From Pomphorhynchus laevis (lineage: Eukaryota; Acanthocephala; Palaeacanthocephala; Echinorhynchida; Pomphorhynchidae), in the NCBI GenBank assembly GCA_012934845.2, contig WNNJ02000865.1, positions 1-64,000 on the forward strand: DNA of 64,000 nt. Direction: 5' to 3'. Positions within the stretch are counted from its first letter, which is position 1. Each line of letters opens with the position of its first letter. The position numbers and the translations under genes were made by a program. Of the stretch, positions 23,340 to 62,271 are shown piece after piece. A model generated the notes under the pieces. That model did no database searches, was not told the DNA's origin, and saw nothing but the letters and a program-made list of their open reading frames with translations.

Positions 23340-23850
23340 ATTTTAAAGAAAGCCAATATCATTACATATTGTTGCAATTCGTAATATTTCATTATTTAAT
23401 GTATTATATTTTATATTATATGGTATGCATGAATGCCTATGATAAAATATGTTTTTTGTAAATTTGAATATGTCGTCTTTACGATATAAATTAATAGTAG
23501 TTTTAGTTAATGTTAATTTAATGTTCATATCTAGATATACACCTTCTTTATCATTAATATTAATTTTATTAAGAATGAAGCTACCTTGATAAATTTGTTC
23601 ACTAATTGAATAAAAATGATTAGAATTAAATACATATATATCATCAATGTATCAAAACATATATTTCATATATCTATAGTTTAGATTTAGTTTATACACA
23701 GTTATGAACAAATTCATTTTCTATAAAGCTTAAAAACAAGTCAGCTATAATTGAGCTACTATTACCTCCCATTGGAAAAACTTATATTTGTCTAAATATC
23801 GATGTCCTTACTTTTAAATAAGTTTGATTTATCAATATTTAAGGCTTTTA
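23340..23850 (-). pseudogene. Penelope-like reverse transcriptase fragment
   Basis: The minus strand encodes, in order: FPMGGNSSSIIADLFLSFIE (the xPMGxxxxxxxADL block before the catalytic palm), a degenerate region where the YxDD box should be (stops present), then SEQIYQGS, NINDKEGVYLDMNIKL, and HSCIPYNIKYNTLNN followed by the C-terminal thumb region. This order fits RTs of the Penelope-like class. Stops and frame shifts make it non-functional. Closely related pieces are at 24110-24990 and 57735-58120. Confidence 0.65.
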
Positions 23851-24109: not shown

Positions 24110-24990
24110 ATAATATTAAGTTGATTTATAAATTTTACTATTTTCTGTTTAATTTTATTTTTGTAGGAACCTAGTTTAAAATGTGGATCGATTAAATTAT
24201 TTTAACAAGGAAGCTAATATCATTACATATTATGGTAATTCTTAAAATTTAGTTATTTAATGTATTATATTTAATATTATATGGTATGCAAGAATGCTCA
24301 AGTAAAAATATGTTTATTGTAAATTTAAATAAATCATCTTTGCAATGTAAATTAAAAGTAGTTTTAATTGATGTTAATTTAATGCTTATATCTAGATATA
24401 CACCTTCTTTATCATTAATATTGGCTTTATTAAGAATGAGGCTACCTGGATAAATTTGTTCGCTTATTGAATATAAATTATTAGAGTTTAATACACGTAT
24501 ATCATAAATATATCGAAACATATTTAATATATTTATATAGTTTAGATTTATTTTTTAAACAGTTATGAACAAATTCATATTCTATAAAGCTTAAAAGTAA
24601 ATCAGCTATAATTAGGCTACTATTACCTCCCATTGGAACACCTTTTACTTGTCTAAATATAGATGTCCCTACTTTTAAGATAATTTTGATTTATCAAAAT
24701 ATTTAAGGATTCTATTAATTCAATTTTATCCATATATTTATATTTACATGACGGTTTAATTTTTGTTAATTTATTACAGCATATATATGTATATATATTT
24801 TTCAAAATATAAGATTAATTAATAATATAAGATTAATTAATTTCTCTAACGCTTCTTTGATATCTGCTAAATCTAGATTTGTATAAAGCGTACTAAAATC
24901 GTACGTATTTATGTTTTGGAAATTTATTCCTTCTGTGTGTTCTAAAAATTCTTTTGTAGAATTAATACTGAAATAGTACTTGGAGAAAGC
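24110..24990 (-). pseudogene. Penelope-like reverse transcriptase fragment, longer copy
   Basis: On the minus strand it starts upstream with TYDFSTLYTNLDLADIK, the RT block containing the first catalytic Asp (DFSTLYT), and has the VPMGGN block. The catalytic box reads FRYIYDIRVLNSN, so one Asp of the expected YIDD is Tyr. SEQIYPGSLILNKANINDKE and YLDISIKLT follow, then HSCIPYNIKYNTLNN. Frame breaks separate these parts. It is adjacent to, and in the same orientation as, the shorter copy at 23340-23850. Confidence 0.7.
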
Positions 24991-26253: not shown

Positions 26254-26482
26254 ATGATGAACGACCTAGAATATCCGGTAGCTAGTTCTCAAAACCGTAT
26301 GAATGCTCTAAGATCACGAATTCTAAGTAGACTGTCGGAAAAGAGTGAAGTGAGCGTTGATGTAGAAACTTTAACATCAGAATATAGTGGCGGAATGAGC
26401 AATGATAATGAATCAAAAATAATTGATAATAAAAATTATGAACGTATAGCTATTAGAGACAGTTCAAAATCGACATCGTCGG
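26254..26482 (+). CDS. Gene X exon 1 (N-terminus)
   Basis: Encodes 76 residues starting MMNDLEYPVASSQNRM and ending SSKSTSS, then one base of a split Gly/Asp codon before donor GTAATT (26483). Composition is Ser/Asn/Glu/Arg-rich with RSRILSRLSEKSE near residues 19-31. The phase-1 end matches the phase-1 start of every repeat exon. Two Met codons in a row give the start; an upstream AG (26247-26248) would also give an in-frame exon start at 26249, so this may be a second exon. Confidence 0.65.
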
Positions 26483-29400
26483 GTAATTGAAGAGTAATTT
26501 GAATTTCCTATAAGATTTTTATTAATTGTCAAGGCAATACATCGGATGATGAATCGATAAAAAAAATATTTTCAAATCAAGGTAAGTTAAAAATAAGTTG
26601 ATTTAATAAAGTTGATTATTAAGACTTCATGGAACGCACATTTAATTGTTTTTAAGAATATATAAAGGTTGAAATTGACTACGTTGCTGTCCCGGATCCA
26701 TATTGCTGGATTTGATCAGTATATTTTTATTTAATTAAACTTGATTGCATCTGTTTGGCTTCGTCAGGGTTGCCCTTTGTCTCCACTTTTGTTCCTTGAT
26801 TACATGGACAAAATTTCGAGACTGGCTGCTCTGACGGATGTCGGCCTTCAGTTTGGTTCCATCAGGATACCATATCTGCTTTTTGCATATGACGTTGTTT
26901 TGTTATCTTCTTGCCCCTTGGACTTACAATGCCTACTAGAACGATTCACGATGGAATGCCAAGCAGCAGGGATGTTGGTTAGTACCTCCAAGACTGCCTC
27001 TATGTGTTCGTATCGGATCAGGTGGCAATGTCAATCCGGATTGGGAACAGGGTTCTTCCTGATGTGGAGGATTTCAAGTATCTTCAGGTATTGTTCTCGA
27101 GGAACCGCAAAAACATCAAGGAGATTAAAAAGCGGATTTGTGCAGCTAATGCAGCAATGTGTTCTTTGTACAAATCTGTCGTGGTGAAGCGGGAGTTGAG
27201 TCTTCGGGTGAAGCTTTCGGTTTACCACGCAATCTTCGTTCATATCTTAACCTATGGTCATGAACTTTGGGTTATGGCGGAAAATACCATATCTCGAATA
27301 CAGGCAAACGAAATGAGGTTCCTTCGCAGTGTGGTTGGTCTTAACCTTAGAGATAACGTTGGAGTAAAATATCTGCTTTTTCACATCGAAAAAAGTCAGC
27401 TGAGGTGGCTAGGACACGTTCTGTGGATGTCTAGGGATCACCTTCCTCGGAGGATTTTCCAGGCCGGACTCTCTGGAATGAGACATCGAAGTCGACCTCG
27501 GTATCGGTGTAGAGATCAAATGTCGAAACTGGCCGAAGACCACCTTGGGATATTTAAAAGAGAACTCTGGTCTGTCGCCCAGAATCGCGATGTCTGAAGT
27601 AGTTATTCGTTTCCTGCTTCCAAGACCCGGCACCCGAACCAGTGGTTGACAGGTAAAATCTCGTATATTATTTGTTTTTACTTGCCGATAAATTGTTGCT
27701 TTGCATATTTGAGCTGAAATTCTTTGTGGTTGTGACATGGCATTATCCTTACAGATATTGTTCCCTTTCTAGATAATGCAGGACGCTACTAACCAGCCTG
27801 AGTGGGTCTAATCAGAAGCTGACCATACCTACATTTCATGTTTCGACTCTTATTATCTGCTCATTCAGTACAATTATGCTGATCGGATTTGAACTCAGGG
27901 ACGTCTGTATCATGATTCAACGCCATACCCCCTAGGCTGGCTTCTCCGGTAGTGTAGATATATATATCTGTATAGTACTTTTGGTAGGGAATCGTATCCT
28001 AATGATCTATTAGAAACCTACCCTATGTGTGTGATCCGTCAGCCGGATCATTGTTTTCATGCTGCCATTTGCAAATAATGTTTTTAATTTAACTTGATTG
28101 CATCTGTGAGCTGAAATTCCCTCTGACTGTGGCAGGACATTATCCTCACAGGTATTGTTTAAAATCCTCACCAGTATATTTTAATTTAATAAATAGACAA
28201 CAGACTACAACAATAAGAGACTGATCAATAAAGTTATTTATAATAAGTTATTAATAATAAGTTGATTAATAAGAATAATCTGATTATTAAAACAATTTAA
28301 AACTATAAAAATCACATTTAATTGTATATATCATTAATTTTAAATTGTATTCAACAATTTAATTTAAATAATTAAATAGAATTAAATATACGTTTTAGTT
28401 TCAAACTAAAAACAAAAAAAATATATATTTAAAGTTTAAATATTGGAATAAATGTATATTGTATCTTAATAAAATTTCAACTTGTAAATCAAATTATATT
28501 TTAAATTAACTTGTCAATCAAATTTAATTAATTTGAATTGATCTGTCTCACAATAAATTGGGACAATTCGAACATTATCAAAGTTGATTATGCAATTAAA
28601 TTAATATTTAAAACGTACTTTTAAAAAAATATTATCAATTTCAACGATATTTACTCCACTTTATGGCAGTTGAGAGTAATTTAATGTATAAATATTTAAA
28701 TTACAAATTTTACCTGTAGTAATGATGTGGACAGTACAGTTCATCGGAGACTCTGTAGCATTTACCTGACAATTGGCATTTACAAATATTGCATTTGAGG
28801 CAGTTTTTGTGCCATAATGTTCCTGCTTCATCTAGTATTTTATGCTCGCAGGACTCAAATCTCTGATGCTGAAATACTTTGTTTTTAAGTTTTGTATACC
28901 TTTTGTTAATTTTGTATTAAAATTGGAGAAACAACAATATCGAATAAACGTTCAATCTAATTGAACGTTTATTACAGTCTAATCGTACAGTCTAATTTTA
29001 AATGCAAAGTTTAAAATTATATCTCACTAGCCTGATAAAAATATATTCATAAGCCAAACAACCCAAACTCTGACTCGAGCTCTGAGTCGAATCGAAAGTA
29101 TTGATAGCTGCTGCCATTTATTATATGAAAGACAATACGTAATGACAATTGTTCTAACTTTTTGAGTATAAAATTAGAGCACAAACAGTATCCAATATGT
29201 GGAATATTTGTCTGTTTTCATAAAACAAACAGGGAGTTTATTTGTGGATTTTGTGCCTTTGAATTACTTTCCGGATTTCCAAGTGGTCGCTGTTTCGATT
29301 AAGGTGATAATTCATTTGTGGCTGATTCGTCAAATGACCTGCTATCTAACCAACATCAATGTATACGAATTCAATTACCTCAACTTGACCCGACAGTAAC

Positions 29401-32400
29401 ACCTGATTCGGCCTGAAGATTTGACGTCATTGTCCTCTATGTGCCCATCTATTTTTCTACTATTTTCTCAGCCAGCTTCAATCACTCCTAATGTCGTTCA
29501 GACGGCCCTCACCGCGTATTTATCATCCTAATATATCATCTTCCAATCATGTTTCAATACCTTCCTCACCTGATCATGTCTCTCATTAGATTCCAATATG
29601 TGGAATATTTGTCTGTTTTTCATAAAACATACAAACTTGATTACAAAATGGTATTCCAATGGGCAGAACAGTATCTAATTATGTACTAATTATTAAATAG
29701 TTTAATAAGAATAAATAATTTTATTAAATAAATCAAAATAAAATAAACTTGCAAAGTGAATATCACCTTTTCCATTTGGTGAGGTCCAAATGGAAAAGGT
29801 GTAAAAAGTGTTTGAAAATTGTAAGTTTTAAAAGTTTTAAAAATTTTCAGTCAAAACTCATTATTAAATAGGTGGTAAACATATTTTTTAATTGAAAATG
29901 TTTTATTGAAAATATAATTTAATAATATTATAATTAATATATACTAAATTATTATATATTAATTATTATATGATCACATATTATATAATTAGGAAAGGTG
30001 GCGTGAATATTTGGAGGAAATTTCTACTGAAGAGTTCCCGCATCCACCGATTCCACAAGATCTAGCAATACTCGGTCCCGTACACCCAATCCTTACATAA
30101 GAAGTTGAAGAAGCGATAAAACAGATGGAGGCAGGGAAAACATCAGGTCCAGATGACATTTCATCAGATATATGGAAGGCTAGGTGTTGGAATCCTGTTC
30201 GCTGAATTACAAATTTCTTCAATCAAGTCATCGAAGAGGAAAATATGCCGAACGACTGGAATAATAGTATAACAATACCGATCTGGAAAAGGAAGGATAG
30301 CCTAGCCGATTGTTGCAATTATCGCCCGATCAGACTACTTCCTCACACCGTAAAGATCTTCGAGCGTATACTTGATATACGGATACGTAGTGTCACGAAA
30401 AGTAGCATTAATCATGTCGGTTTCGTTAAAGAATACGAAACCACTGACGTCATGCACGTAACGCAACTCCTGCTCGAAAAGCATCGAGAAAAAGGCAAAC
30501 CCCTTCATGTGGCATTTCTCGATTTGGAAAAGGTATTCGACAGTGTTCCCCATAAACTTATTTGGCAAGCCTTGCGTTTGCATTATGTCTCAGAAAGACT
30601 AATTCGCTGTATCCAGCTCTTCAATCGCGACTCGAAGAGTAGAGTACGAAGCCCGGCCGGATTTTCTAGGCCGTTTCGAGTTTCCGTCGGAGTTCATCAA
30701 AGAAGCGCCCTTTCCCCAATTCTGTTCATTCTCGCAATGGATTTAATAACTAGTGGGATACAAATTTTAGCTGTAGTAATGATCTGGACAGTACAGTTCA
30801 TGAGAGACTCTGTAGCATTTATCTGACACTTGGCATTTACAAATATACACCATACACCATATTATACGCCGATAAGGTTTTATTGACAACAAATGACAAG
30901 ACGGATCTCGAAAATCAAGTCCAGTTTTGCAGTAACCGATTAGCACAAAATGGTCTACATTTGAACAACCAAAAGACTGAGTATCTGACAACTGATCCGA
31001 ATGAAACTGGCACAATTAGTCTTAATGGAATGAACCTGATTCGGACCGAAAGCTTCAATGTCGGAATGATACTCTAGGCTGACGGTGACCTTAGGGCTGA
31101 GGTGAATGCAAGGATCAGTGCTCATTGGACTAAGTGGCGTGCGAAGACAGGGTTATATGTGATCGATGTATGAAGGATAGTATTAAATCCGAAATATATC
31201 GGAAAGTGATTTGTCCTGCTGCTTTGTATGGTGCCCGAGTTCTAGTCAATTACAAAGAACACCAAAAATCGCATCGCTGTCATAGAGACTAAGATGCTGA
31301 GATAAACAAGTGGAGTCACTTGCCTCGATCATCTGCGAAACGGCGAAATTCGACAACGGTACCGTATTGTGCCAATCAATGACAAAATGAGCGAAACCCG
31401 TCTTCGGTGGTTCGGTCACACTCTGCGTACAAGTGAAGAATCAATTGTGAAAGCAGGCCTGAACATACAGGTAGATGGTAAACGCCTAAAAGGTAGACCA
31501 AAACAGCGATGGCTCGACACAGTAAACAAGGATTTGCAAGCTGCTTGATTGCACCTGAATCTGGCCCACAACCGTGCGATATGAAGGACGCGTTCATTGA
31601 GAGCCGACTCCGCTTCCATACGGGATAAACGGCAAAAGAAAAAGAATAAGATATTATATAATTATAGGCAAAAAATTATAGTCAAAAGATATTTATATAT
31701 TAATATATATTTTTTATTTGATCAAATAAAACATTTTTAAGATATTAAAGGGATTGGTAAGATGATGGGGCATTGTAACAGAGCAACATTTAGAACACAA
31801 TTTGTTAATCATATAACTTAAATATAATATAATTTAAGTAGTAAAAGATTATCAAGTAATTTTTGACAATAATTAAAAAATATTTTCAGCAAATTTTTAA
31901 ATAAATTTATAAAATAATTAAAACTAATTAGAATTTTCAATCTTTATTATCAATTGAATCATTAAATATATCTCATCACCATGATTGCAAATTAAATTGT
32001 TTAAACGCGTTGAATAATTTTTTATGTTCAACGACCAAAATATTTTTGACACAGCGCAAAAGTAATTATTGTTAGTCATTATCTATCTTAATAAGGAATT
32101 CAATAATTTTAACGCAAAATATCATTTTATATAATATGTTTCAAAATATTAATTAAATAATATAATTAATAATTGTTTTTAGATTTTCTATAATTTAAAT
32201 CAAGTTAGTCATTATCTATCTAAATAAGGAATTCAATAATTTTAACGCAAAATATCTGTTATACTGATAGAAACATAAAAATTTTTAATTAAGATAATTC
32301 CTACATTTCACAAATTCCGACATCGAATGACAAAACTTTACAATATTCAACGCTCACAAAACTTCAGGCTTCAAGCGAAGGTGAGTAAGGTTATTTGTGA

Positions 32401-35400
32401 CACAGTGCAAAAGTAATTATCAAATCAGCTAACTGAGTCTACGTTAGCTATGAAGCCGATATAAGAGTACCGTTTACCTCCGCAGACATTGCTTCTGAGT
32501 ATTTAAAGTACTTCAATAATAATCTCTCCAAGTTTGGTTTACTTACTTTTAAACCTATTCAAGCGTCAATCAAAATAACAGATATTCCCACTGACCTAAG
32601 CACAAACGACTTCCATGTTTTTCACAACATGGAAAAACAAAAAATCAAATCAGCTAACTGAGTCTACGTATTGTTATATAATTATAAAATAAACAAAACA
32701 TAATAATGCTGAATCAAAATTTAATAATTAAATAATAAAATTAATAATTGCTTTTAGATTTTCTATAATTTAAATCAAGTTAGTCATTATCTATCTAAAT
32801 AAGGAATTCAATAATTTTAACGCAAAATATCATTTTATATAATATGTTTAATTAGTAGCAACGAAGAACTGCGTCAATATTCTTTTGAATAACTCCTCAC
32901 ATTGCCCACATTTGACGCTGGCTACTCAACTTGGTTGGTTAAGACAAGGTCTCAGTGATGCATGACTAATAGCCATAAACAATCCGATTGGGACATTCCC
33001 CTCGTTAAACAAGCTCATGAATCTTTAATTGAAGGCTCGGAAGGCGAGGCATCTCGCATGCGAATTATGGAGGTATCCACAAGTGAGTCTGATGCTTGGC
33101 TAAACATAGTCCCAATTGGTGCCCTAGGAACTTTGCTCGATGACGAGGTTGTGATATTGAGCATTTCCCTAAGACTAGGCCTTCCTACATGTACTCCACG
33201 CATATGTCATTGTGGAGCGTCAGTTGACGAGTCAGGACGGCACGTATTAGCATGCAGAAATCCGAGAGGAAGATTCTCCAGAAACTCGGAAATAAACTCA
33301 GTGAAAGCATAGTCCTCAACACCGTCAACGGCTCAAACATTCTAGAGCCATCCAATGTATGCAGATCGGACGGTCGACGTCCAGACGGATTCACCATTTT
33401 CCCTTGGCGTGAAGGGAAATGTTTGATGTGGAACGCCACCTGAGTGGGCACTTTCGCTGCCAGCAATGTTAGGAATGCACCAAGAGGAGCGGGCGAAGAC
33501 TCTTCATATGTCGCAGAGCGGAAATGGCTGAAATATACCGACTTGACCATGTCCCACATATTTTGCCTTTTTGGAGTAGAGACTTATGGATCACTGGGCT
33601 CTTCCGCTTTGGCTCTTGTTAAGGATATAAGAAAAGGATTGAAGCACGTTACCGGGGATTCATGTGATACTTCATACCTCCTCCAAAACGTTAGCATCGC
33701 CATCCAACGTGGAAATGCTGTTAGCATTCTGGCAACGGCTCTAAAGGCCAAGAGCATGGTAGGCTGCCGGTAGCAGCAAGTCTTGCTAAAAGAATGACAT
33801 TTCTCTAGGAATAAGACAAACGTTATCTTGTATTTATCTTTTTTAATATTATTGTGTTGAAATATAAAATTAAAGATAATTTTTGTGAACCTCGTATTAC
33901 TTTAAATTAAATTATATACAATTAAAATCGATTATACAATCGATTTATTTTCAGCAACCAGAAGTAAACGCAAAAATATGCCGTTAGAGTACAACGACTG
34001 ATATTATATGCATTATGCTGTTTAAATTTCAGCGCTCTATGACACGGTTTCTTTTATGGATGTGTAGAACACCCATATTTGCTCCCCACGAATTCGTGTA
34101 AAACGCAATTTTGCAATAACCGGAACCGTCATTAAATGAAGTACTAAAAATTTGTTCAACTTTTGAAATATCTCAACACACGAAAGCATAACTAAAAATA
34201 TTCCTCTTTTACTTCATTTGTAACTTTTTTATTTTCAAATAATATCAGCTAACAGAGTCTACGTATTTAATATAATTATAAAATAAACAAAACATAATAA
34301 TGCTAAATCAAAATTTAATAATTAAATAATAAAATTAAAAATTGTTTTTAGATTTTCTATAATTTAAATCAAGTTAGTCATTATCTATCTAAATAAGGAA
34401 TTCAATAATTTTAACGCAAAATATCATTTTATATAATATGTTTCAAAATATTAATTAAATAATATAATTAATAATTGTTTTTAGATTTTCTATAATTTAA
34501 ATCAAGTTAGTCATTATCTATCTAAATAAGGAATTCAATAATTTTAACGCAAAATATCTGTTATACTGATAGAAACATAAAAAATTTTAATTAAGATAAT
34601 TCCTACATTTCACAAATTCCGACATCGAATGACAAAACTTTACAATATTCAACGCTCACAAAACTTCAGGCTTCAAGCGAAGGTGAGTAAGGTTATTTGT
34701 GACTAAAGAGGAAGACTTCAAAAATATTATTCAAATACCAATTGAGAAACATTAAACGTATATTTGATTAAGATTTTAATAACGTTCCACAGATGGCGAA
34801 ATCAGCTTCCAAGAATTTTTCAGATTCATCAAGTACACGGCAACGAGCTCCAAGTTATGGTAAGTAATGAAATTTGAGGATTAAAATAGAATGACAAATT
34901 CAAAATAAAAAAATCTAAAATATACGTGGTCCTTTTAAAATAATAAAAAAAAACAGAATTTATTCTATTAAGAAATTGGCTTTATTCCCACAATTAAACC
35001 AACAGATTCCACAAATCTCTCATTTCTATTGAATCCGAGACATCGAGCTACTAGCAATGGTAAATAAATTTATGTCTGAATTTTAATAAGTGATCGATTA
35101 AAAATAAAAACATGAACAACAATTATTTAAAACAGATTCCACGAATTTCCGACATTCATCGACTACAAGACTTCGAGCTCCAAGCCAAGGTAAGAAACGA
35201 TATTTCTTAATTTTTATTATATAGTAAGCAATTCAAAATAAAAATACTTCAATGAATAACTATTTGTAATTTAAAGTTCAATAACCTAACAACAAAATAA
35301 TTTATATTAAGATGCTGGTTATATTCCCCAAGTTCCAACGTCAATTTCGACAAATTTAACAAATTCATCGACTGCAAGACTTCGAGCTCCAAGCCACGGT

Positions 35401-38400
35401 AAGAAACGATATCTGTTAATTTTTATTATATAGTAAGCAATTCAAAATAAAAATACTTCAATGAATAACCATTTATAATTTAAAGTTCAATAACCTAACA
35501 ACAAAATAATTTATATTAAGATGCTGGTTATATTCCCCAAGTTCCAACGTCAATTTCGACAAATTTAACAAATTCATCGACTGCAAGACTTCGAGCTCCA
35601 AGCCACGGTAAGAAACGATATCTGTGAACTTTTAGTATAGTAAGCAATTCAAAATAAAAATACTTCAATGAATAACCATTTATAATTTAAAGTTCAATAA
35701 CCTAACAACAAAATAATTTATATTAAGATGCTGGTTATATTCCCCAAGTTCCAACGTCAATTTCGACAAATTTAACAAATTCATCGACTGCAAGACTTCG
35801 AGCTCCAAGCCACGGTAAGAAACGATATCTGTGAACTTTTAGTATAGTAAGCAATTCAAAATAAAAATACTCTAATGAATACCTATTTATAATTTAAAGG
35901 TATATAATCAAACAACATAATAATTAATATTAAGATATCGGCAATATTCCACAAATTCCGACATCAGATTCCACAAATTTCCGACATTCATCGACTGCAA
36001 GACTTCGAGCTCCAAGCCAAGGTAAGAAACGCTATCTGTTAATTTTTATTAGAGAGACAAATACAAAATAAGATATATGTTAACGAATAACTATTTATAA
36101 TTTAAAGGTTTTTAATCTAACAACATAATAATTAATATTAAGATATCGGCTATATTTCACAAATTCCGACATCAGATTCCACACATTTTCGATATTCATC
36201 GACTTCAATACTTCGAGCTCCAAGCCACGGTATAAACGCTATCTGTTAATTTTTATTAGAGAGACAAATACAAAATAAGATATATGTTAACGAATAACTA
36301 TTTATAATTTAAACGTTTATAATCTAACAACATTATAATTTTTATTAAGATATCGGCTATATTTCACAAACTCCAACACCAGTTTCCACAAATTTCCCAC
36401 ATTCATCTACTACAAGACTTCGAGCTCCAAGCCACGGTATTAACGCTATCTGTTAATTTTTAGTATAGTAAGCAATTAAAAATAAAAATATTTCAATGAA
36501 TAAATGTTTTTAATTTAAAGGTATATAATCAAACAAAATAATAATTTATATTAAGATGCTGGTTATATTCCGCAAGTTCCAACGTCAATTTCGACAAATT
36601 TCCAACAGTCATCGACTGCAAGACTTCGAGCTCCAAGCCTCGGTAAGAAACGATATCTGTTAATTTTTATTATATAGTAAGCAATTCAAAATAAAAATAC
36701 TTCAATGAATAACTATTTATAATTTAAAGGTTAATAATCTAACAACATAATAATTAATATTAAGATATCGGCTATATTCCACAAATTCCGACATCAGATT
36801 CCACACATTTTCGATATTCATCGACTTCAATACTTCGAGCTCCAAGCCACGGTGAGTAACGATATCTCTTAATTTTTATTGTAGTACACAATTAAAAATA
36901 AAAATACTCCAATATATAAATGTTTTTAATTTAAAGGCATATGAAAACAACATAATTTATATTAAGATATTGGTTATATTCCCCAAGTTCCAACATCAAT
37001 TTCGACTAATTTCCCACATTCTTCTACTACACAACTTCGAGCTCCAAGCCACGGTAAGTAACAATATCTGTGAATTTTTATCAGCGGGACAAATACAAAA
37101 TAAAAAATATTTTAATAAATAAATGTTAAAATTAAAAGGCATATAGTGTATTTGCATACTTATTCTTTTTAAGTTATTAGCTATATGACCCAGATTCCAA
37201 AATCAGATTCAACTAATTTCCCACATTCATCTACTACAAGACTTCGAGCTCCAAGCAACGGTAAGTAACGCTATCTATGAATTTTTATTAGAGTAATAAA
37301 TAAAAAATAAAAATATTTTATTTGAATAAATTTTATCGTGGAACTACGGATCAACTGTTCACTCTCTCAACTATCCTCAAACGCTCTTAGTAGTTCGCTC
37401 TACCGATCTACATGTACTTTGTAGATTTGGAGAAGGCGTTTGGTCGAGTTCCTCGAGAGAGATTGTGGGAGGTACTAAAGGAGTATGGAGTACCACTCTA
37501 TCTTCAGGTAGCTGTGGCTTATCTGCGTGAACAAAGTATGAGTTGTGTTCGTGTTCAAAGTAGGAAGTCTGAATCATTTCCAGTAGGCGTTGGGCTTCGT
37601 CAGGGTTGTCCTTTGTCTCCACTTTTGTTTCTTGTTTACATGGTCAAAATTACGAGACGGGCTGATCTGTCGGATGTCGGTCTTCAGTTCGGTTCCATCA
37701 GGATACCATCCCTGCTTTTTGCAGATGACGTTGTCTTGTTCGCTCTTGTTCTGAGGACTTACAATGCCTACTACATCGATTTATGATGGAATGCTAAGCT
37801 GCAGGGATGTTGGTATCTCCAAGACTGTCTCTATGTGTTCGTCCAGGATTCAGGTGTCAACGTCAACCAGGATTGTAAAAAATATTCTTCCTGATGTGGA
37901 GGATTTCAAGTATCTTGGGATATTGTTCTCGAGAGACGGCAGGTACATCAGGGAGATTGATAAACGAATCTGTTTAGCTAACGCAGCAAAGCGTTCTTTG
38001 AACAGGTTTGTAGTGGTGAAGCGGGAGTTGAGTCTTGGAGCGAAGCTTTCAGTATACCACGCAATATTCGTTCCTATCTTAACCTATGGTCATGAACTTT
38101 AGATTATAACCGAAAGGATAATATTTCGGATACACGCGTACGAAATGAGGTTCCTTGCGTAGTGGCAGGTCACTTAGCCTTAGAAATAAAGTCAGGAATT
38201 AGGCTATCTGGAATGGACTCGTATTAAAGTCACTGCTTCTCAACATAAAAAAGTCAGTTGAGATGGATAAGACACGTTCTGAGGATGTCTAGAGATCGCC
38301 TTTCTCAATGGAATTTTCTAGGCCCGACTCTCTGGAAATAGACCTCGAGGTAAACCTCAGTACCGGTGGATAGATCAAATCTCGAAACTAGTCGAAGAGC

Positions 38401-41400
38401 ACTTTGGACTATTAGAAAGAGAACTATGGCTTGTCGCCCAGGATCGCGATTAATGGAGTAGTTTGACTCGTATACTGCATCTTACCCAACAACCGAATCA
38501 GTAGTTGACAAGAAAAATCTTGTGTTACTCTTATTTTTCTTGTCGAGAAAAAATCCTTTGTTGTATTTGTATTTCCATGCAAATGCAGCAAAGGATTTTG
38601 CTGCAATCTTGTTCCTGTTGTTACAACGTTTTATTTTTAACACACCATGCTATTAAAGATCACGTCATTCGATCTAAATAATTCGACAAATAAATTCGTA
38701 GTATTCGCGAGTTAAAACATTTGTAAATTCGCTATAATTTAGAATTCCTATATGTATTCTATAAACTAATCCTTTAAAGGATACATTTGAATCGAGTAAC
38801 TGTCCTCAATCAGTCGAATAACGATTTATTGCAAATTTAGAAGTATTGAAATCGTTTGGAAATATTGTCTATAAAGCGAAAATGAGTGTATGTCAAAGAG
38901 ATTTTTAATTACTTGTTTGAGATCGTCGCTGCAATTAAAAAAGGGTCTTTAATACAATATTACAATTCAATTGTTCTCCAGTCATCCGTAGTATTAGATT
39001 TGATGTACCTTCATCTTCTTACTCCGTCGTATATTCGAATGTCAACAGTTAAGATTCAGCAGGACTGGCAAATCTAAGCATTAAATTCACTGAAAACAAA
39101 GTTTGGTGTATGGCAAAATCTAGAATACGTCCGTCATAAAATTATATGTTCACTCCTACAGTAACATGTTAAAAATGGAAACTGAGAGTCAAAATTTGCA
39201 ATTGATCTATCCCAACTTAGAAAGTTGTGATTTTGCTACTTGATGCAGTGGATAAATAACTAGACGTTTATACAATTAAAGTTTAATTTCATACCTAATT
39301 ATTATTTTATTATCAATATAATGATATATATACTTAATATAATAAAATTATCATAAACTTCCTAAGTTCATAAACTTTAAGTTTCAGGTTAGATATATTT
39401 AATTATAAATAATTAAATATAATTAATATATTTGTAAAATTTAATTTTTAAATATGCATTTGCAAATTTAGTGTTGTAGCACTTAATGTGAAGTTACCAG
39501 AAGTCGTTCTGGTAATTCATACACATGACTCATGTTGCCGTCTGCCAGTCTTCATCTGCATCTAGTAGGAACTGATGAGTTGATGACGAAACGATACTTG
39601 TTACTGTTATCATTGTTCTTTCGTATCTGGCTTCAATTATTGTTAACGTAATTCACGCGAAGTGGTTTCATTCTCTCTTTTGAGTAATTCAAATTAATAA
39701 TATGTATTTACAAAACTGATATATTTATGAAAAAATCAACTATCAAAATAAAAATTAATATCAAATTGATAATATTGCAATATCATTTTCAAAATTATGT
39801 TTTGTTTGAATGCTAGTTTATCTATGAAACATTATAATATTAAATTTTGTTTCATTAAATATAAAAGGAAATCAATGACTTTTTAGAATTGCTTTAATAT
39901 GTTGTTTGATAGCAACAACAAGATTTATCAATCGAAAAACAATGAGCGTTGATGTTAATTATGTCGGCACACCCAACATTTGTAACCCCTTAGAGCAAAG
40001 GCTAAGGTTTCTCAAGCTCTTCGTCTCTCGATTACCCATCATAGTCCGCCTCGATTGGACTCTCCGGGGGGGGGTAAAAGACCCCTAGGTGGTTCAGTCG
40101 AAGTGTGGCGTGTTGGATTGGCTGGCGGGCTCAGATCCCACTGAACCTGATGTCATGATGTAGGAGGACTCAATCAGTCTGCAGTAGAAGAACTCTCTCA
40201 CGTAGTTCTGCTTTTTGCTTTTCTTTTTTAACTGACATTTATTATTTAACCCATGTATAATTTTGTTAAGAAAATCTTCATTATTACATTTGTAATGCTT
40301 ATTTTTTATTAAAGGCGAACTACAACGTTCATCAAAGTTATCTGATGTATGGAATAATGATGACAAGTTAAACAGGTATTCATTAGAAATATTTATGGTA
40401 TTTTTATTCTAAATTACCTTAGTGAAACGCTAATGTTACATCATTTACATGCACAATTTAAAATTTTCTAGGAATTCACATGGCAATTATATTGCATCTG
40501 CTCATGAAACTCAAGGTGATTTTAACTACTTCTCAATTTGTATATTCATTCCAATTAATAACAGGCGGTTATCAGCAACCACCATCAGTACGTTCAAGCA
40601 CTGATTTTAACAAAAGACAAGAAAGAAAAAGCATGGAAGGCAATCAATACGGGTAAATTAGAAGTTAAAAAAGATTTTATTTAATATTGTATAATACTTT
40701 TCTAAACGATTATTTGCTGATAATTTTTCAGATAACAAAGTACAATTAAGTTTGCAAATGCATAATTAAGGATTAAATTTTACAAATATCTTAATTAGAG
40801 ATTGTTATAAAGAGTCAAACTCTATAAGCAATCAGTGTGTTTAATATTAAACTTTAATAACTATTAATTGCATTAAATAAATTAATTACTTAATAACTAT
40901 TAATTACATTAAATATATTAATTACATTTTATTTAATATTTATGAATTTCAAATTGTATTTCTAATTAAAAGCCATTTGTAATTTTAATAGTTTTGTTCA
41001 TAGTGTTAACATTATTTCTATCTTAATATTTGTTTTATACAATAATATTATTGACTAAGAATCAAGTACTGTCGAAGTGGTGTAGCTACAGGCGCGCACT
41101 GATAAGACCACACTGTAGTGATGAGTAGACTAAGGTCAAAACGCCTCATTGGAGGCTAGGAGTCTGTGGTAGGCGCATCCCGGGTTAAGCTTTCCGACGA
41201 AATTTGTAAAAAAGCATGAGGTTTAAACTTTCCTGTTCGTGGGTAATACTAAAAAAGTAAAGTCAATTCTTTCAGATTTATTTCAGAATTATAAAGCGTC
41301 ACCAAATGATGATGTAATAATATTATTAATTGGTTTATAAGTAATTAAAATTTAAAAAAAATTAATTTATTAAAATTGATATTTTAAATTTACTATATAA

Positions 41401-41497: not shown

Positions 41498-42946
41498 AAC
41501 ACTTTGTATTCAATTGTAATTTGAATACAAATTACAAATCCAAACTTTGAATTTAATTGCAAATGATATTTTGTTACATTTAGTATTCCACCTAGTAATT
41601 ATTACACAAATCTACTGGGACCTGACGCGTTTGAAGATAAAGTAATAGACATTGATTTTGCCGCAATTGAAATGGCGAATTATCCAACCACGATACCGGT
41701 AGGTATAATAGTAAAGAACGCGTACATTAAACCTGAACATATGGCTTACAACAATTCCGGTAACACTGTGTTTCCCAACATTCAATATTTCCGACAATCT
41801 AATCACATTAATGATGCTGATAAGTTCACAGCCGCATACCCAATGGATGCATCACAATATTTGAACGAAACAATTAGTAGTAGCGATGATACCCCCGGAA
41901 GTTTTGAAAATTCACGATATGAAAATCACATAATCGACGATAGATATCTTCAAATCGATCCTAGAAATTTATCTACATCCACATTCTACACTGATCCAAA
42001 AAACAAATTCAAGGTATATGATATTTTAAAAATATTTATTTGCTCTAAGCATTTATTTGCTTTGATAAAGACTGTAATTATTATATCAACAATTCATTTC
42101 GCTGAATTAAATGTTTCTTTCGATAAAAATAACTAAATTATAAATATTTTATGAATAAAAAATATAACAGTTTTCCACGGTGTCACGCAATTTCTAATTT
42201 CGTGAAACCGTGGATAATCAGACAAGCTAAGTAGATTATCAAATAAACCCGTTAGATTATCAAATAAGCTTCGTAGATTATCAGATAAACCCCCAAAACT
42301 ATCAAAAGACTAGAATGGCATTTCAGTAATTTTAAAAGATTGTAGTCATAAGTGCTGAAGAATTGTGTTTTTAAAAAGTCGTTAGCTATGAAGAGTCGTG
42401 ATGGATAAAAATTTATTACGACTAATAATTCATCACGTAATTGATAAAAGTCTTAATTAGATAATAAAATATATCATCAAGAGTAGTGATGCATCGTTAA
42501 TGGTGTTGTTAAAATTACAAATGATATCCATATTAAACGAATATCTAATTTTCAGAAAATACCTTGCATCGGAATGACGTCGGATATTTATCATATTTTT
42601 GTTAAAAATCTATTCTATGCCAATATTTTTATTTCTTATGTTGATTAACAGGGCTCATCAGGATTAATAAATATTTTTAATATCTTATAATTTTTAATAA
42701 TTTACTTTATTATATAATAATTTGTAGATTATATATTTAATTTATATTTATATTTTTTATATTAATTAATTTATATTATTTTTAATAATTACAATTTATC
42801 AAATGTTCACTATAATAATTTATCAAATGTTTTATTTAATATTTACATTTTATTATTAATGATCATAATAGCTAACTCAGTCCACGTATTTTATACTAAA
42901 TATAAATAAAAAAGACGATAAATAATAAATAATTATATAAGATTTC

Positions 42947-43026
<80 letters not shown>

Positions 43027-46000
43027 GATTTGATTCAACCAGGACTGTCTAATATACCTATCTGCTTTTCTCTATATATAGAGAGAATTTCATGCTTCTA
43101 CACCGCAAGACGGCGTACCGCTTCGGCTTTGAGAATCCTCATAAGTTGCAGCAAAACAGTGTATACACATGAAAAACATACTATATATAGATTAAAGCAG
43201 AAAGAATTCACAATATGCTAATTGCATGACGTAGCTTGCGCTTTCGAAGTCAATGCAATGCAGTGAATTCTTTTCAGTGTAATAGACATCAGCTGGATCA
43301 CTAAATGACCAATATAATATATTACAAAGGAAACAGCACCGCCGCCTGTGATCCTCGGAGGACCAATAAATAAATAAAAGATTTGATTCAACTAGGACTG
43401 TCTATTTTACCTATCTGCTTTTCTCTATATATAGAGAATTTTATGCTTCTACACTGCAAGACGGCGTACCGTTTCGGCTTTGAGAATACTCATCAGTTGC
43501 ATCAATACAGTGTATACACATGAAAAACATACTATACATAGATTAAAGCAGAAAGAATTCACCATATGCTAATTGCATGACGTAGCTTGCGCTTTCGAAG
43601 TCAATGTAATGCAGTAAATTCTTTTCGGTGTAATATACATCAGCGGGATCACTAAATGACCAATATAATATATTACAAGAGAAACAGCACCGCCGCCTGG
43701 GATCCTCGGAGGACCAATAAATAAATTAAAGATTTGATTCAACTAGGACTGTCTATTTTACCTATCTGCTTTTCTCTATATATAGAGAAAAGCAGATAGT
43801 CCTGGTCGAAATATATTCACAAACTACAAATCTAAATTCAATATTGGCACCGCTGCTATGTTGGGTAGAGGAGTTAGGGGCCGAAACCTGATAGCATAGC
43901 AGTTCCTCCTGATGACCTCTAATTCTTATTCTGATACAACGTCTGTTATTTATTAGTCAATTCATAAAAATGACGTTTATTTTAAATTTTATTTTTTATC
44001 TTTTATTTTTATTTTTTAACTTGATTAAAATTATAGAAAATCTAAAAACAATTATTAATTTTATTATTTAATTATTAAATTTTGATTTAGCATTATTATG
44101 TTTTGTTTATTTTATAATTATATAACAATACGTAGACTCAGTTAGCTGATTTAATTTAAATATATGCAAATTAAAATCACAGCATCATCTCATCAATTGA
44201 CTTTAAGCTGAACTGTGAAAGAATGAAACATTGTCGTATGTGTAACGGCTATTTGCAAAATTGTTGGCTAAATCGACATCGGCATTTAACATCTTTGTTA
44301 TGACACGAAATGGAGTAACAAGATCATAACAGCTAACTCAGTCTACGTATTTTATACTATATATAATTAGAAAAGACAATAAATAATAAATAATTATATA
44401 AGATTTTGTGTAATATATTTATATTTAAAGTTAACATTTAAAATTAAAATTAAAATTAAAAATAAAAATCAATTTATATGAATTGACTAATTTATATAAA
44501 TGAATGTGAATAATTCATATAAGAAATATAGGTCATCAGGGATTGGATAACTAATATAAAACCCAAAAGAGGATTTTCCAATTATTAATAAATTATTAAA
44601 AATTCAGAGGATTTTTATTTAATATTTATTTTTTATTATTACGGTATATAACAAATGAATTACTTTTCCCGTCTATTCCTGTTCTGATTGAAGGAATCGG
44701 GAACACTGAAACAGCATACACTAACTCTCTGCTGTTTAGACTTTTGAATCTAATCAGTAGTGAGCTGCTGCACAACTGGATTGAAGTGCAGCACTCTTAG
44801 ACAGCTTAATGAGTCCTTCTAGTACAATTCATGTACTAGGAATTAACACTAGTGAGAGTATTCATCACGAATAATTTACTCGCCAAGACCTAACAAGTAG
44901 GATTTAAAAGCACCCTTATCGAGCACACAAAAAACCAAGCTCCTTTATTGCTGGTCTTAATGCTATAACAAGTGAATTACTTTTCCCGTCTATTTCTGTT
45001 CTGATTGAAAGAATCCAGTTATGCAGCAGCCCCTACTGATGATACTCAAAAGTCCAAACAGCATAGAGCTAGTTTAAGCTGTTTGAGTCTTCCCGATTCC
45101 TTCAATCAGAACAGAAATAGACGGGAAAAGTAATTCATTTGTTATAGCATTACAACGAGCAATGAAAGAGCTTGGTTGATGGTCGCTCGATAATAGTACT
45201 TTTAAAATCCTACTACTGATTAGACTCAACAGTCTAAACAGCAGAGAGTTAGTTTATGAGTCCTCACGATTCTTTAATTATAGTATATGCAAAAGATCGT
45301 AATATTAAACAGATAAAATAGATTACGATCAAAAGATTTATTTATCAACCCATATACCACAAGCAAGAGAAATATTACAGTTTATACAAATATGCAGTAA
45401 AGAGAAAAATATTTACAAACTACAAATCTAAATTCAATATTACTATAAATTTAAATTCAATGAACTTCAAATATATGCAAATTAAAATCACAGCATTATC
45501 TCATCAATTGACTTTAAGCTGAACTGTGAAAGAATGAAACATTGTCGTATGTGTAACGGCTATTTGCAAAATTGTTGGCAAAATCGACATCGGCATTTAA
45601 CATCTTTGATATGACACGAAATGGAGTAACAAGATTAATAAAATTGTAATTTATAAAGATTATAAATAAAAAATGATATTAATTTAATTTTATATTAAAT
45701 TAATTATAATCTTTAATTATAATGGTATAGTTATAGATCATGGTATTATACACATATAATATCTGCTATAGATTTTAATTATTACTGAATAATATAAATA
45801 TTTATTATTTTCTATATTTAAAAAATATATCATATCAATATTTAAAATATATTTATTAGAACATTTAATAATAAAAATTCATGGCTCGGGAACAACCAGT
45901 ACCAGAACGAGTTATCCCAAACTCGCCTTTCGTTTATTTCAGGACAACTCGTCCCAGAACTAACTAGCGAACAAAAGAAACTAATATTAATATAAACCAA

Positions 46001-56614: not shown

Positions 56615-58844
56615 CTGAAAATGTGATTAACCCGATTAATTTACAAACTAAAACGGTTAATTTATAGCAACATTTCTATACTACAGAAATATCGGAATAA
56701 TTTAAAAATCAATTAAACGTAAAACATAGTTTGAAAAATAAATAGCTCTAATCTGTCACTGGTAATCGACACGCCTGGAGTAACATGATTCCCAAAATTT
56801 ATCCATGAACCAACATCCGGATACTTACTGAATACTAATGTATAGTGTGTCTATTATATTATTATATAATAATGTAGTGATTTTTTTAAAGCCACTCCGC
56901 CTTTCGGCTTGGGCATATAAAAAAAAGATTATAAGATAACAAATATAAAGTCAGAACAGTTGTCTTTCTTCTTATTTCTTGAGCTGTTTAAAATTTCATT
57001 GATTGGCTCGAATTGATTCTACGTGACACCGGTACGCATCGTCAGCCGAAATAAGCCTATAAGCCTACCCCCACTTCAGCGTATCTATTGTTTTTAAAGA
57101 TAAAGAAGACAAATGAGCACAGGAAAATACATGTAAGAGTGATGAGCATGCTGTGTTGCAAAAATAGCATACTCAAGTTGATGATCGTTTATGTATGATT
57201 CTTCCTTTTTTACAGAACTTGGGGTGATTAAATAATAATATAATAAACAATATAATAATATAATATATTATATTATTATATTATTTTTAAAAAGTATTTT
57301 TTATAAGTATTAACACATCTTTTTAGTTTTAAAAAGATGTATTGATTCAAACATCATACTATCGATGTATAAAATTTAACATTAAATTAACATTTCACAA
57401 TAAATCAGATGAGTGAACTGATCCTACGTATTTTGTACTATATATTTATTAAAAATATTTAAATCTTAAGATTTTATTTAATTTAAATTCATATAAAATA
57501 AGAATTTAAGAAAATCAATTTATGCATTGATTAATAAATAATTTACCATTGGGAGGAACTTCTATGCTATCAGGTTTCGGCCCTTCTTCTTCGACATAAC
57601 ATAGCACCGGGGCCAAATGCGTGCTAATGACGTATTTCCTCTTATGAAACTTGATTATCATAATCTTATTCTAATACGTATATGATATATTATATATATT
57701 ATAGTATTACAAATATATTATATATATTTTTAATATTATTGTGTTAATGTATATATTTTACTATTCTCTGTTTGATGGTATTTTATAGTAACCTAGTTTA
57801 AAATATACTTTTATTAAATTATTTAAATGATTTAAATGATTTTGAAACCTAGTTTTAAATATGCATCTATTAAATTATTTAAATGATTTTGAACGTAGCC
57901 AATATCATTACATATTGTTGCAATTCTTAAAATTTCATTATTTAATGTATTATATTTTATATTATATGGTATGCATGAATGCCTATTTAATATTATATAG
58001 TATGAATGCTCATGCAAAAATATGTTTCTTGTAAATTTGAATATGTCATCTTTACGATATAAATTAATAGTAGTTTTAGTTAATGTTAATTTAATGTTCA
58101 TATCTAGATATATACCAATTTAATATACTAACAGATGTTAATTTAATATTCCAAAATGCTAACAGACGTTAGCGAAATATTAATAAAATTTTCCTTTTTT
58201 CTTTAATCGAGCTCCGATAATTCTTCAAATAAGCTTTAATCATATTAAATGTAACTAGTTGTTGATGATTTGAACAAAGGTAAAATTTTCGGAATATAAG
58301 GAAGTAAGACGTACCAGGAACCGCACCAACCATATTCATGAATCCTTGTTAATTTCAAAACAAATGTTAAATAGTAAAGCAGTAAAACAAATATACCAAA
58401 AACTGTCCCTGCATTGTTGGGACATATATCCTGCGGGTTAATCATCAGACCAACGGTGACCATACTGTAACATGATATAGCCATCATCAGTATGATGAGT
58501 GAAATTATTAAAGAATGTGACGACAGGGTTAAAACATGAAGACAAAGTCCGGTACAAACGAGGGAAACAAATGTCGCAGATTTTCTAATTGTAGTTAGCG
58601 AATAATCCTTTGCCAATACATCGCAAAGTTTACCACCCATTGCAGTCAATGGCAGCGATACACACCAAGGAATTACGTTTACCACCCATTGCTGTAAATG
58701 CATGCTAAAAATATAAATAGAGATAATGAATGGCAAACTTTTGCTTCCGGGTGTTTATCGTGGAAATACGTAGGTAGCCATGAAAACAGGATCGAAAAAC
58801 ATACATTTTGACACAGGTAGGCAAATATCAGAGCCCTAAAATAT
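56472..58844 (-). CDS. SLC17A9: SLC17-family vesicular transporter, C-terminal exons (SLC17A9/VNUT-like)
   Basis: Four exons joined by phase: 58739-58844, 58397-58691, 58315-58344 and 56472-56614 (stop TAA at 56472-56474). The protein is a major-facilitator transporter. Diagnostic pieces: ILFSWLPTYFHDKHPEAK joined to QWVVNVIPWCVSLPLTAMGG, then GLMINPQDICPNNAGTVFG joined to FMNMVGAVPG and FTGVLVVGSFL. These match the region from TM7 to TM12 of SLC17 organic-anion transporters; SLC17A9, which loads ATP into secretory vesicles, is the nearest I can recall. The N-terminal half should lie upstream (above 58844), but I could not recognise further exons before the LINE sequences. The 1.7-kb intron 56615-58314 holds a MITE and a Penelope-like fragment. 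Confidence 0.8.
57405..57650 (+). repeat. MITE-like family member in the SLC17-like intron
   Basis: CAGATGAGTGAACTGATCCT at the start; CCATTGGGAGGAACTTCTAT, then GGTTTCGGCCCTTC and CATAGCACCGGGGCCAAAT, ending GACGTATTTCCTCTTATG. Confidence 0.65.
57735..58120 (-). pseudogene. Penelope-like RT C-terminal fragment
   Basis: MNIKLTLTKTTINLYRKDDI then HSCIPYNIKYNTLNNEILRI, NDIGYVQNHLNNLIDAYLKL. Same family as 23340-23850. A 60-base stretch coding NHLNNLIDAYLKLG is duplicated at the left end, and a 40-base tandem copy interrupts the HEHS region. Confidence 0.65.
58315..58344 (-). CDS. SLC17-like 30-nt microexon
   Basis: Acceptor TTAACAAG, donor GTACGT, phase 1-1. It encodes FMNMVGAVP plus split Gly codons at both ends, exactly the residues expected between AGTVFG and GFTGV in this family. 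Reading through it without splicing gives stops or non-family sequence, so the splice model is well supported. Confidence 0.85.
58397..58691 (-). CDS. SLC17-like internal exon, four membrane segments
   Basis: Acceptor ATTTACAG, donor GTATAT, 295 nt. QWVVNVIPWCVSLPLTAMGG, then KDYSLTTIRKSATFVSLVCT, hydrophobic helices, and NPQDICPNNAGTVF. The intron before it is 47 nt (58692-58738). Confidence 0.85.
58739..58844 (-). CDS. SLC17-like internal exon, TM7 region
   Basis: Acceptor TTACAATCAG, donor GTTTGC, enters in phase 2. YFRALIFAYLCQNVCFSILF then SWLPTYFHDKHPEAK. The [ST]WLPTYF motif is typical of SLC17 proteins. Confidence 0.8.
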
Positions 58845-61016: not shown

Positions 61017-62123
61017 ATGTGTAGTGTACAAGTAACTTCGGAGCTATCAAACGATAGCAGCAAAAATCATTCAAAAATCAACGATAATTCTACAAAATAA
61101 GACAAATTAAAGGAAAATCTAACTACGGATCCAAGTAACAAGGTTAGTAATTTTTCTATGATCTCAGGTGATGGGGAGGTGCTTTCCCCATTCCTAAATT
61201 AAAGAATTTGCTGATAATTAAAGTTAAGAAACCGATTGAAAAACACGATCTCTACAATAAATTTTTGACATCCTTCAACAAACAGTTTCAGAACAGGGTT
61301 CTATTTAACTCTGTTAGGTTACACCCTGCAGAGGTGAAGATCTCTTTTGTCTCGAATGACCTCGCCGCAAACTACTTGGAGTACTTCTCCGCCAATTTAG
61401 CTGAATATGGTGAAATCTCATCCAAGCCTATCCTGGCCTCACTGAAAGTTTCAAATCTTCCCTGTTCAATGGAAGAAGATATACGTTCTTTTATGGCTAA
61501 ATTCAAAGTCAGCAATCTGAGGTCAATCCAGGGTAGAGACGGAAACCCTATCCCGGTTAGCTTTTGCAATGCTCCCGTAAATATTGTCGAGTCCTTGTCT
61601 AATTCTGCGTCGAATCCCTTTATGGGTTTCAATATAAGATTCACGATCACAGAGAGGGATGATCTGACCTGTCCCCACTGCAGCCGGTGTCACAAATGGG
61701 GACACTGGGCCTCCAGCTGCAGTGGGACCCCTTCGTGTGGGGTCTGTAGCTCCACCAGCTGCCCTTCTCTTACAACTACCGATCGCTGCGAGCCCCCCCC
61801 TTTCCTGCTCGAATTGCGGAGGGTGCCATCCTGCTTGGAGCAGGAAATGTTTTCTATTCAAAGAATATAGAAAGTTATTCTTGCTAAAACCGCCCAATCC
61901 GGCAAAGTCATTCTCGGTCGCTGCAGCTCCACGTATGGATGACGCTGACATTCTACGGATTATCGACTTAAAGACTTCGAATGCTCTTCGGCAGATGGAG
62001 GAGTTAGTACACACTATCCTAACTGTTATCGGGACTAATCCTGTGCTTCCTGTTTCCTCGGTTCCGGAGTCGAAAAAGAGAGGGGGCTTCAGCCCATGCC
62101 GTCCTCCCACTCAAGATTGGTAA
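61017..62123 (+). pseudogene. LINE ORF1 (gag-like, CCHC zinc knuckles)
   Basis: Possible start ATG at 61017, with stops soon after. The main frame runs from 61172: VKISFVSNDLAANYLEYFSA and further N-terminal gag-like sequence, then zinc knuckles CPHCSRCHKWGHWASSC and CGVCSSTSC. At a run of C (about 61793-61800) the frame shifts. In the next frame CSNCGGCHPAWSRKC completes the third knuckle, followed by a C-terminal tail ending CRPPTQDW and stop at 62121. ORF1 proteins of this kind bind element RNA in Jockey/I-type LINEs. One base of slippage in the C run would explain the break. Confidence 0.75.
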
Positions 62124-62271
62124 GCTAACCCAACAGAAAACTAATAAGGGAAATGAAGATACTGCCCAGGGGCAAGTACCTTCCTTGGAGGGGGCTAGTG
62201 GTGGGAAGGGCAACCTTCCTGCACCTAGCTTTGTCTAGGTAGGTAATCCCTCATCCAACTAATCCATCACA

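Follow-up and report, generated by a model that had tools for sequence, protein, structure and literature searches.

Disordered proteins of variable length are known to arise from tandem arrays of symmetric exons, whose sequences gene annotation covers poorly. In tropoelastin and collagen genes, symmetric cassette exons encode repeats, and losing exons keeps the reading frame. For the PEVK region of titin, one study describes a C-terminal repetitive part that expands when exons are duplicated and contracts when they are lost; insertions of long interspersed nuclear elements (LINEs) are linked to the duplications (PMC6469411). For the micro-exon genes (MEG) of schistosomes, one study gives exons of 6 to 81 bp, mostly 15 bp, N-terminal signal peptides, and proteins of no more than 189 residues (PMC10526429). 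Here we describe a run of 15 symmetric exon units at positions 32294-37260 of the first 64,000 nucleotides of contig WNNJ02000865.1 (assembly GCA_012934845.2, forward strand; this whole stretch is hereafter the window) from Pomphorhynchus laevis, a member of the Acanthocephala, for which there are very few genomes. On balance, the array is probably the central part of a single-copy gene for a lineage-specific, non-secreted disordered repeat protein, in which the number of units would change by unequal crossing-over or gene conversion.

The layout of the locus is a known kind of architecture, and the repeat protein itself matches nothing that we searched. Titin PEVK would be the closest working analogue and a better comparison than the micro-exon genes. 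As in PEVK, a long run of short exons each repeats a segment that is here probably disordered, the array lies among LINE copies, and its young part is mosaic. Unlike PEVK, the array is rich in serine, threonine, proline, and asparagine rather than in P, E, V, and K, and it has 15 units compared with about 110. Pfam revealed no Ig, Fn3, or other titin domain in the 750-residue protein modelled below. The likeness to titin is one of architecture only, and nothing found here points to a role in muscle. Tropoelastin and collagen genes share with the locus their symmetric, repeat-coding cassette exons; unlike in those genes, no elastin or collagen repeat is encoded, and neither matched in Pfam. The initial annotation of this DNA had likened the array to micro-exon genes, with which it shares many short exons divisible by three and its place in a parasite gene without a recognised family. 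This likeness proved weak, as 14 of the 15 units are near-copies of 87 nt, longer than the 6 to 81 bp of MEG exons, and the modelled protein has 750 residues and an N terminus that is neither hydrophobic nor signal-like. MEG exons, in addition, are not one repeated unit.

We located the 15 units by their AG/GT borders and an open phase-1 frame. All lie on the forward strand, at 32294-32380 (E01), 34596-34682 (E02), 34773-34859 (E03, encoding RQRAPS), 34973-35059 (E04, encoding RHRATS), 35136-35189 (E05), 35312-35398 (E06), 35521-35607 (E07), 35728-35814 (E08), 35935-36021 (E09), 36143-36229 (E10), 36350-36436 (E11), 36556-36642 (E12), 36765-36851 (E13), 36967-37053 (E14), and 37174-37260 (E15). 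Each measures 87 nt except E05, which has 54 nt and lacks the first 33 nt of the unit. E06, E07, and E08 are identical as exons. Every unit is preceded by AG, followed by GT, and bounded by phase 1 on both sides, and none contains a stop in the coding frame, whereas the other two forward frames are interrupted in 5 and 6 of the 15. Borders and phase were read from the DNA sequence, and the exons are predicted ones. The run of three or more adjacent homologous exons with equal phase at both ends makes this an intragenic tandem symmetric-exon array. It agrees in number, length, phase, openness, and position with the initial annotation.

Such units are concentrated in the array. Stop-free 87-nt stretches between AG and GT, in the phase of the array, number 15 inside 32294-37260 (the 14 units of that length together with one spurious stretch at 33577); comparable stretches number 18 in the remaining 59,033 nt of the plus strand and 25 on the entire minus strand. 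In 200 shuffles of 34501-37300, the mean number of open 87-nt AG...GT stretches was 0.375 and the maximum 3, compared with 13 observed there. A profile built from E06-E15 and run against the window recovered the 15 units and one match at chance level (61876-61833, E 0.49).

The ten young units are packed into 2 kb. Introns 5 to 14 measure 115 to 122 nt and units 6 to 15 are spaced 202 to 209 bp apart, so the introns of about 120 nt and the period of about 207 bp first reported for the whole array hold for this part. They do not hold for the 5′ part, where intron 1 measures 2,215 nt and introns 2, 3, and 4 measure 90, 113, and 76 nt; E01-E05 form an irregular, older part of the array. Using Tandem Repeats Finder, we detected a 207-bp period across 35137-37315, with the 415-bp double period scoring slightly higher. 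The G+C content is 41% in the exons and 19% in introns 2-14.

Exon and intron are repeated together as one duplicated unit. Among the units, the subtypes DAGYIPQVPTSIST and DIGYIPQIPTSDST can be distinguished, and E01-E04 are strongly diverged. E01 equals E02 exactly, and the two are set in copies at 32071-32402 and 34373-34704 (both plus strand), which lie 2,302 bp apart. Because these 332-nt copies differ by only 3 mismatches, one of the two units is a recent segmental duplicate, which may or may not be used. Among the young units, the nearest neighbour switches within units. The intron after E06 is identical to the intron after E12 over its first 60 nt and to the intron after E07 over its last 60 nt. 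E14 is closest to E06-E08 in its first half and to E11 in its second, while E10 and E13 are one base apart as exons and 72% alike in their introns. Since the nearest neighbour changes between unit halves, we regard the young units as recombination mosaics, of the pattern that unequal crossing-over or conversion between units would leave. These intron and exon mosaics show that recombination has changed the length of the array in this genome. In E05, the missing 33 nt of exon were lost in frame together with the acceptor, and the unit begins at the site where other units carry an internal in-frame AG. This AG is kept in 7 of the 14 units of 87 nt (E03, E04, E09, E10, E11, E13, and E15).

The unit was then sought in its own genome (249 Mb in 3,242 contigs). 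Both the unit protein and a 622-nt DNA probe of the unit matched the array locus only, and the C-terminal exon of the gene model (41584-42013) gave a single match, these counts being lower bounds. As a positive control, the adjoining LINE fragment at 37340-38480 returned 1,610 candidates, and 40 of these were scored; the search was therefore able to find repeats. A satellite or a transposon-borne repeat was rejected on these grounds, since the unit occurs at one locus while the neighbouring LINE is widely found. The initial annotation had named a non-transcribed satellite without conservation of frame as the outcome that would undo its proposal. Two of the three points of that outcome are countered, by the single locus and by the diverged units, which still share frame and exon length.

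Three lines of evidence speak for a coding array. First, exon sequence and exon length have outlasted the introns in the old units. Measured against the E06-E15 consensus, E02, E03, and E04 show 30, 31, and 28 differences in 87 positions (64 to 68% identity), and all three retain their length, both splice dinucleotides, and a frame without stops. Under a simple model, E02, E03, E04, and E15 would all have remained open with a chance of about 0.02. Introns 2-4, immediately downstream of E02-E04, have changed in length, and their global alignments score 0.78, 0.73, and 0.83 compared with 0.74, 0.74, and 0.81 for shuffled sequence, which is at most a slight improvement; for intron 2, 47 of 200 shuffles aligned locally to the young introns as well as the intron itself. 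Second, within E06-E14, gaps fall in 0 of 87 exon columns and in 10 of 123 intron columns. Third, divergence among these units is 0.093 at codon position 2, compared with 0.172 at position 1, 0.186 at position 3, and 0.182 in the introns. A simulation of E06-E14 gave 78 expected amino-acid changes against 43 observed, and 4.9 expected units with a stop against 0, but it assumes independent units and overstates constraint; counting each unique variant once is fairer and only suggestive. The synonymous/nonsynonymous comparison among units proposed at the outset is weak when each variant is counted once. The amino-acid constraint on the repeat is modest. We read the array as one that holds firmly to frame, length, and splice sites and more loosely to its exact residues, a behaviour shared by many disordered repeats.

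The array can be placed in a 22-exon model spanning 26254-47353 and encoding 750 residues, in which the phases chain consistently through the array to a stop. The flanking exons were picked by eye with the range of the initial annotation in mind, and the chain is a model rather than independent proof. Modelled exon 1 (26254-26482) carries the first ATG and an open frame for the N-terminal 76 residues plus one base, and ends at the donor GGTAATTG. Modelled exon 2 (26534-26581, 48 nt) has AG/GT borders and fits as phase 1-1. Downstream of the array follow predicted exons at 40315-40375 (AG/GT, phase 1 in and 2 out), 40472-40515, and 40565-40652, the latter two as parts of the phase chain. A large C-terminal exon at 41584-42013 would encode 143 residues, and the last exon, at 47273-47353, belongs to the same chain and contains the stop. 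All modelled exons lie on the plus strand. The start of the gene is uncertain and earlier exons are possible, because an in-frame acceptor (CTACAG/GCAAT) lies a few bases upstream of the modelled ATG.

The 29-residue repeat reads approximately D-I/A-G-Y-I-P-Q-I/V-P-T-S-x-S-T-N-F-x-x-S-S-T-x-R-L-R-A-P-S, and A26 and S28 are invariant in all 15 units. RxRxxS, which we take to be the consensus of AGC-type kinases and which the RxRAPS of the repeat matches, occurs in 10 of the 15 repeats (E03-E09, E11, E12, and E15). Counting RxRxxS/T, the 750 residues contain 11 instances, 10 of them in the array, compared with 0.57 in shuffles. The array consists of 19.1% S, 12.2% T, 9.0% P, 7.6% I, 6.5% R, 6.0% L, 6.0% A, and 5.5% N. 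The model contains no Cys, and its highest 19-residue hydropathy is 1.22; by hydropathy, it has no transmembrane-like stretch and no signal-peptide-like hydrophobic start, an upstream exon being possible. The charge-hydropathy rule places the flanks of the array on the disordered side.

The earlier statement that the repeat belongs to no described family was borne out in Pfam, NCBIfam, a protein collection, solved structures, and viral contigs, none of which yielded a homologue. Pfam gave only sub-threshold matches for the 750-residue model, and NCBIfam gave nothing. In the protein collection, none of 7,999 candidates scored for the model matched at E ≤ 10, and neither of the 2 candidates for the 143-residue C-terminal exon was a match; this absence is weak evidence, since the collection may hold few animal proteins. 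Four pattern matches in viral contigs yielded 0 confirmed ones. The two matches among sequences of solved structures (E 0.82 to 0.85) and the single PHROGs match (E 0.06, unknown function) were taken as chance. Rfam reported nothing in the window at gathering scores. A literature search, which did not include the peptide itself, found no paper on this repeat.

For the favoured single-copy repeat gene, we propose the following mechanism. The array would grow and shrink through unequal crossing-over or gene conversion among its homogeneous 207-bp repeats, and breakpoints would be tolerated because every junction is in phase 1. The protein would be a non-secreted, disordered repeat chain in which the basic-serine motif RxRAPS is multiplied, such that copy number would set both how long the chain is and how many potential sites for phosphorylation or docking it carries. 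Exon skipping may contribute further variation, with E10 and E11, which have poor donors, as the first candidates to be skipped. A doubtful but more specific form of the proposal is a phospho-tunable scaffold. Here, RxRAPS and P-Q-x-P-T-S would be multiplied with each exon, copy number and exon choice would set the number of sites per molecule, and the internal acceptors would give an 11-residue-shorter form of half of the units. The array is compact and its history of unit exchange still readable, and it predicts both copy-number polymorphism and exon skipping. If RNA confirmed the exons, the locus would offer a tractable system in which changes in protein length caused by recombination could be told apart from those caused by splicing.

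Several observations weigh against this gene. Introns 3 and 4 retain some local likeness to the young introns, which only 0 and 2 of 200 shuffles equalled, and a match in the genome search that starts in E04 continues for 54 nt into intron 4, so the contrast between exon and intron is one of degree and not absolute. Among the young units, divergence is comparable in exons and introns. Of the unique variants, 29 are nonsynonymous, 14 synonymous, and 0 stops, where 30.8, 9.4, and 2.8 would be expected; P is 0.07 (synonymous) and 0.05 (stops), or 0.22 and 0.15 under a flat mutation spectrum. At the amino-acid level, E02, E03, E04, and E15 resemble the consensus no more closely than their DNA divergence predicts. 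The charge-hydropathy rule puts the array at the boundary (mean 0.426 compared with 0.423) and gives no clear verdict on disorder. RxRxxS is missing from 5 of the 15 units, and its use by kinases would follow from a consensus that we presume. The argument for a coding array comes from genomic sequence throughout.

The alternative that survives best is the one put forward in the initial annotation, in which units are alternately skipped and splicing makes many protein lengths from one gene. We consider it unlikely. Because every unit has phase 1 at both ends, the frame survives whichever units are included, and the earlier claim that any exon can be removed or added without a frameshift follows directly. 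Tandem duplication alone, however, yields symmetric phases, and their use is not required. The donors of E10 and E11 are weak, matching 4 of 9 consensus positions, but most donors score 6 to 8 of 9, a strength at which constitutive use would be expected. The internal in-frame AG of half of the 87-nt units, at the place of the E05 acceptor, would provide a further option that is shorter by 11 residues.

It is rather improbable that the gene encodes a secreted, mucin-like surface glycoprotein of the parasite, with serine-, threonine-, and proline-rich repeats bearing O-glycans. The composition of the array (19% Ser, 12% Thr, and 9% Pro) would suit such a protein, and E06-E08 contain the N-glycosylation sequons NLT and NSS. 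The array also shares S/T-rich repeats with the Pfam family Mucin-like (PF16058), which matched in 6 stretches with an E value of 1.1e-4. This match, however, reaches 23.0 bits and falls below the curated cut-off of 28.7, and composition easily makes such matches; the model, in addition, has no hydrophobic N terminus, membrane stretch, or other secretion signal. Least probable is a decaying or untranscribed tandem repeat whose open frame is the remnant of a former gene: young exons and introns do diverge alike, the constraint tests that count each variant once are only suggestive, LINEs have inserted into the large introns, and E01 is a recent duplicate, yet all 15 units have an open frame and both splice dinucleotides, the phases of the flanking exons likewise link up as far as the stop, and exon length is constant except in E05, whose 33-nt loss is in frame.

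The surroundings of the array contain several mobile elements. A LINE with a reverse transcriptase is present in two copies that flank the array, at 26735-27597 and 37340-38480 (Pfam RVT_1 in 37394-37786). Its protein presumably resembles the LINEs of bony fish, and, if this is true, the element would be interesting as a possible case of horizontal transfer into a parasite of fish. The large intron before the array contains a reverse transcriptase fragment of another kind, at 30206-30826 (Pfam RVT_1, E 8.8e-14). Upstream, two related reading frames on the minus strand (23343-23651 and 24249-24554) look like what we take to be a Penelope-type reverse transcriptase. LINE-like frames also occur at 61172-63215, where a cysteine-rich, zinc-knuckle-like stretch accompanies a weak match to the endonuclease family Exo_endo_phos_2 below its cut-off.

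Other features of the window and the genome were recorded alongside. An open frame on the minus strand at 58245-58754 resembles by eye a sugar/anion transporter of the major facilitator superfamily (MFS), with no Pfam match at E 0.01 and none among solved structures. At 43013-43789, a 351-bp tandem repeat (2.2 copies, 93% identity) stands beside a TA run and belongs to no Rfam family at the gathering score. COX1-like pieces (L017-L020) were found on several contigs of the same genome and are best read with AGR as Ser and TGA as Trp, which marks the genome as animal. Stop codons other than TGA are present in L018 and L019 and suggest that these two are mitochondrial DNA copied into the nucleus. 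The low GC of the genome, the higher G+C of its mitochondrial fragments, and its LINE load resemble the values published for P. laevis (GC 32.9%, mitochondrial GC 42.5%, LINEs 36%; PMC7310846), for which raw data (BioProject PRJNA554558) and a transcriptome (GIBA00000000) are listed. A query with a nematode major sperm protein found nothing, a negative that carries no weight. A complete divergent 18S gene, followed by 5.8S and the start of 28S, is present on contig C151 (L021), and a conserved 18S stretch was matched 56 times across many contigs, frequently as a pair on one contig separated by about 10 to 16 kb.

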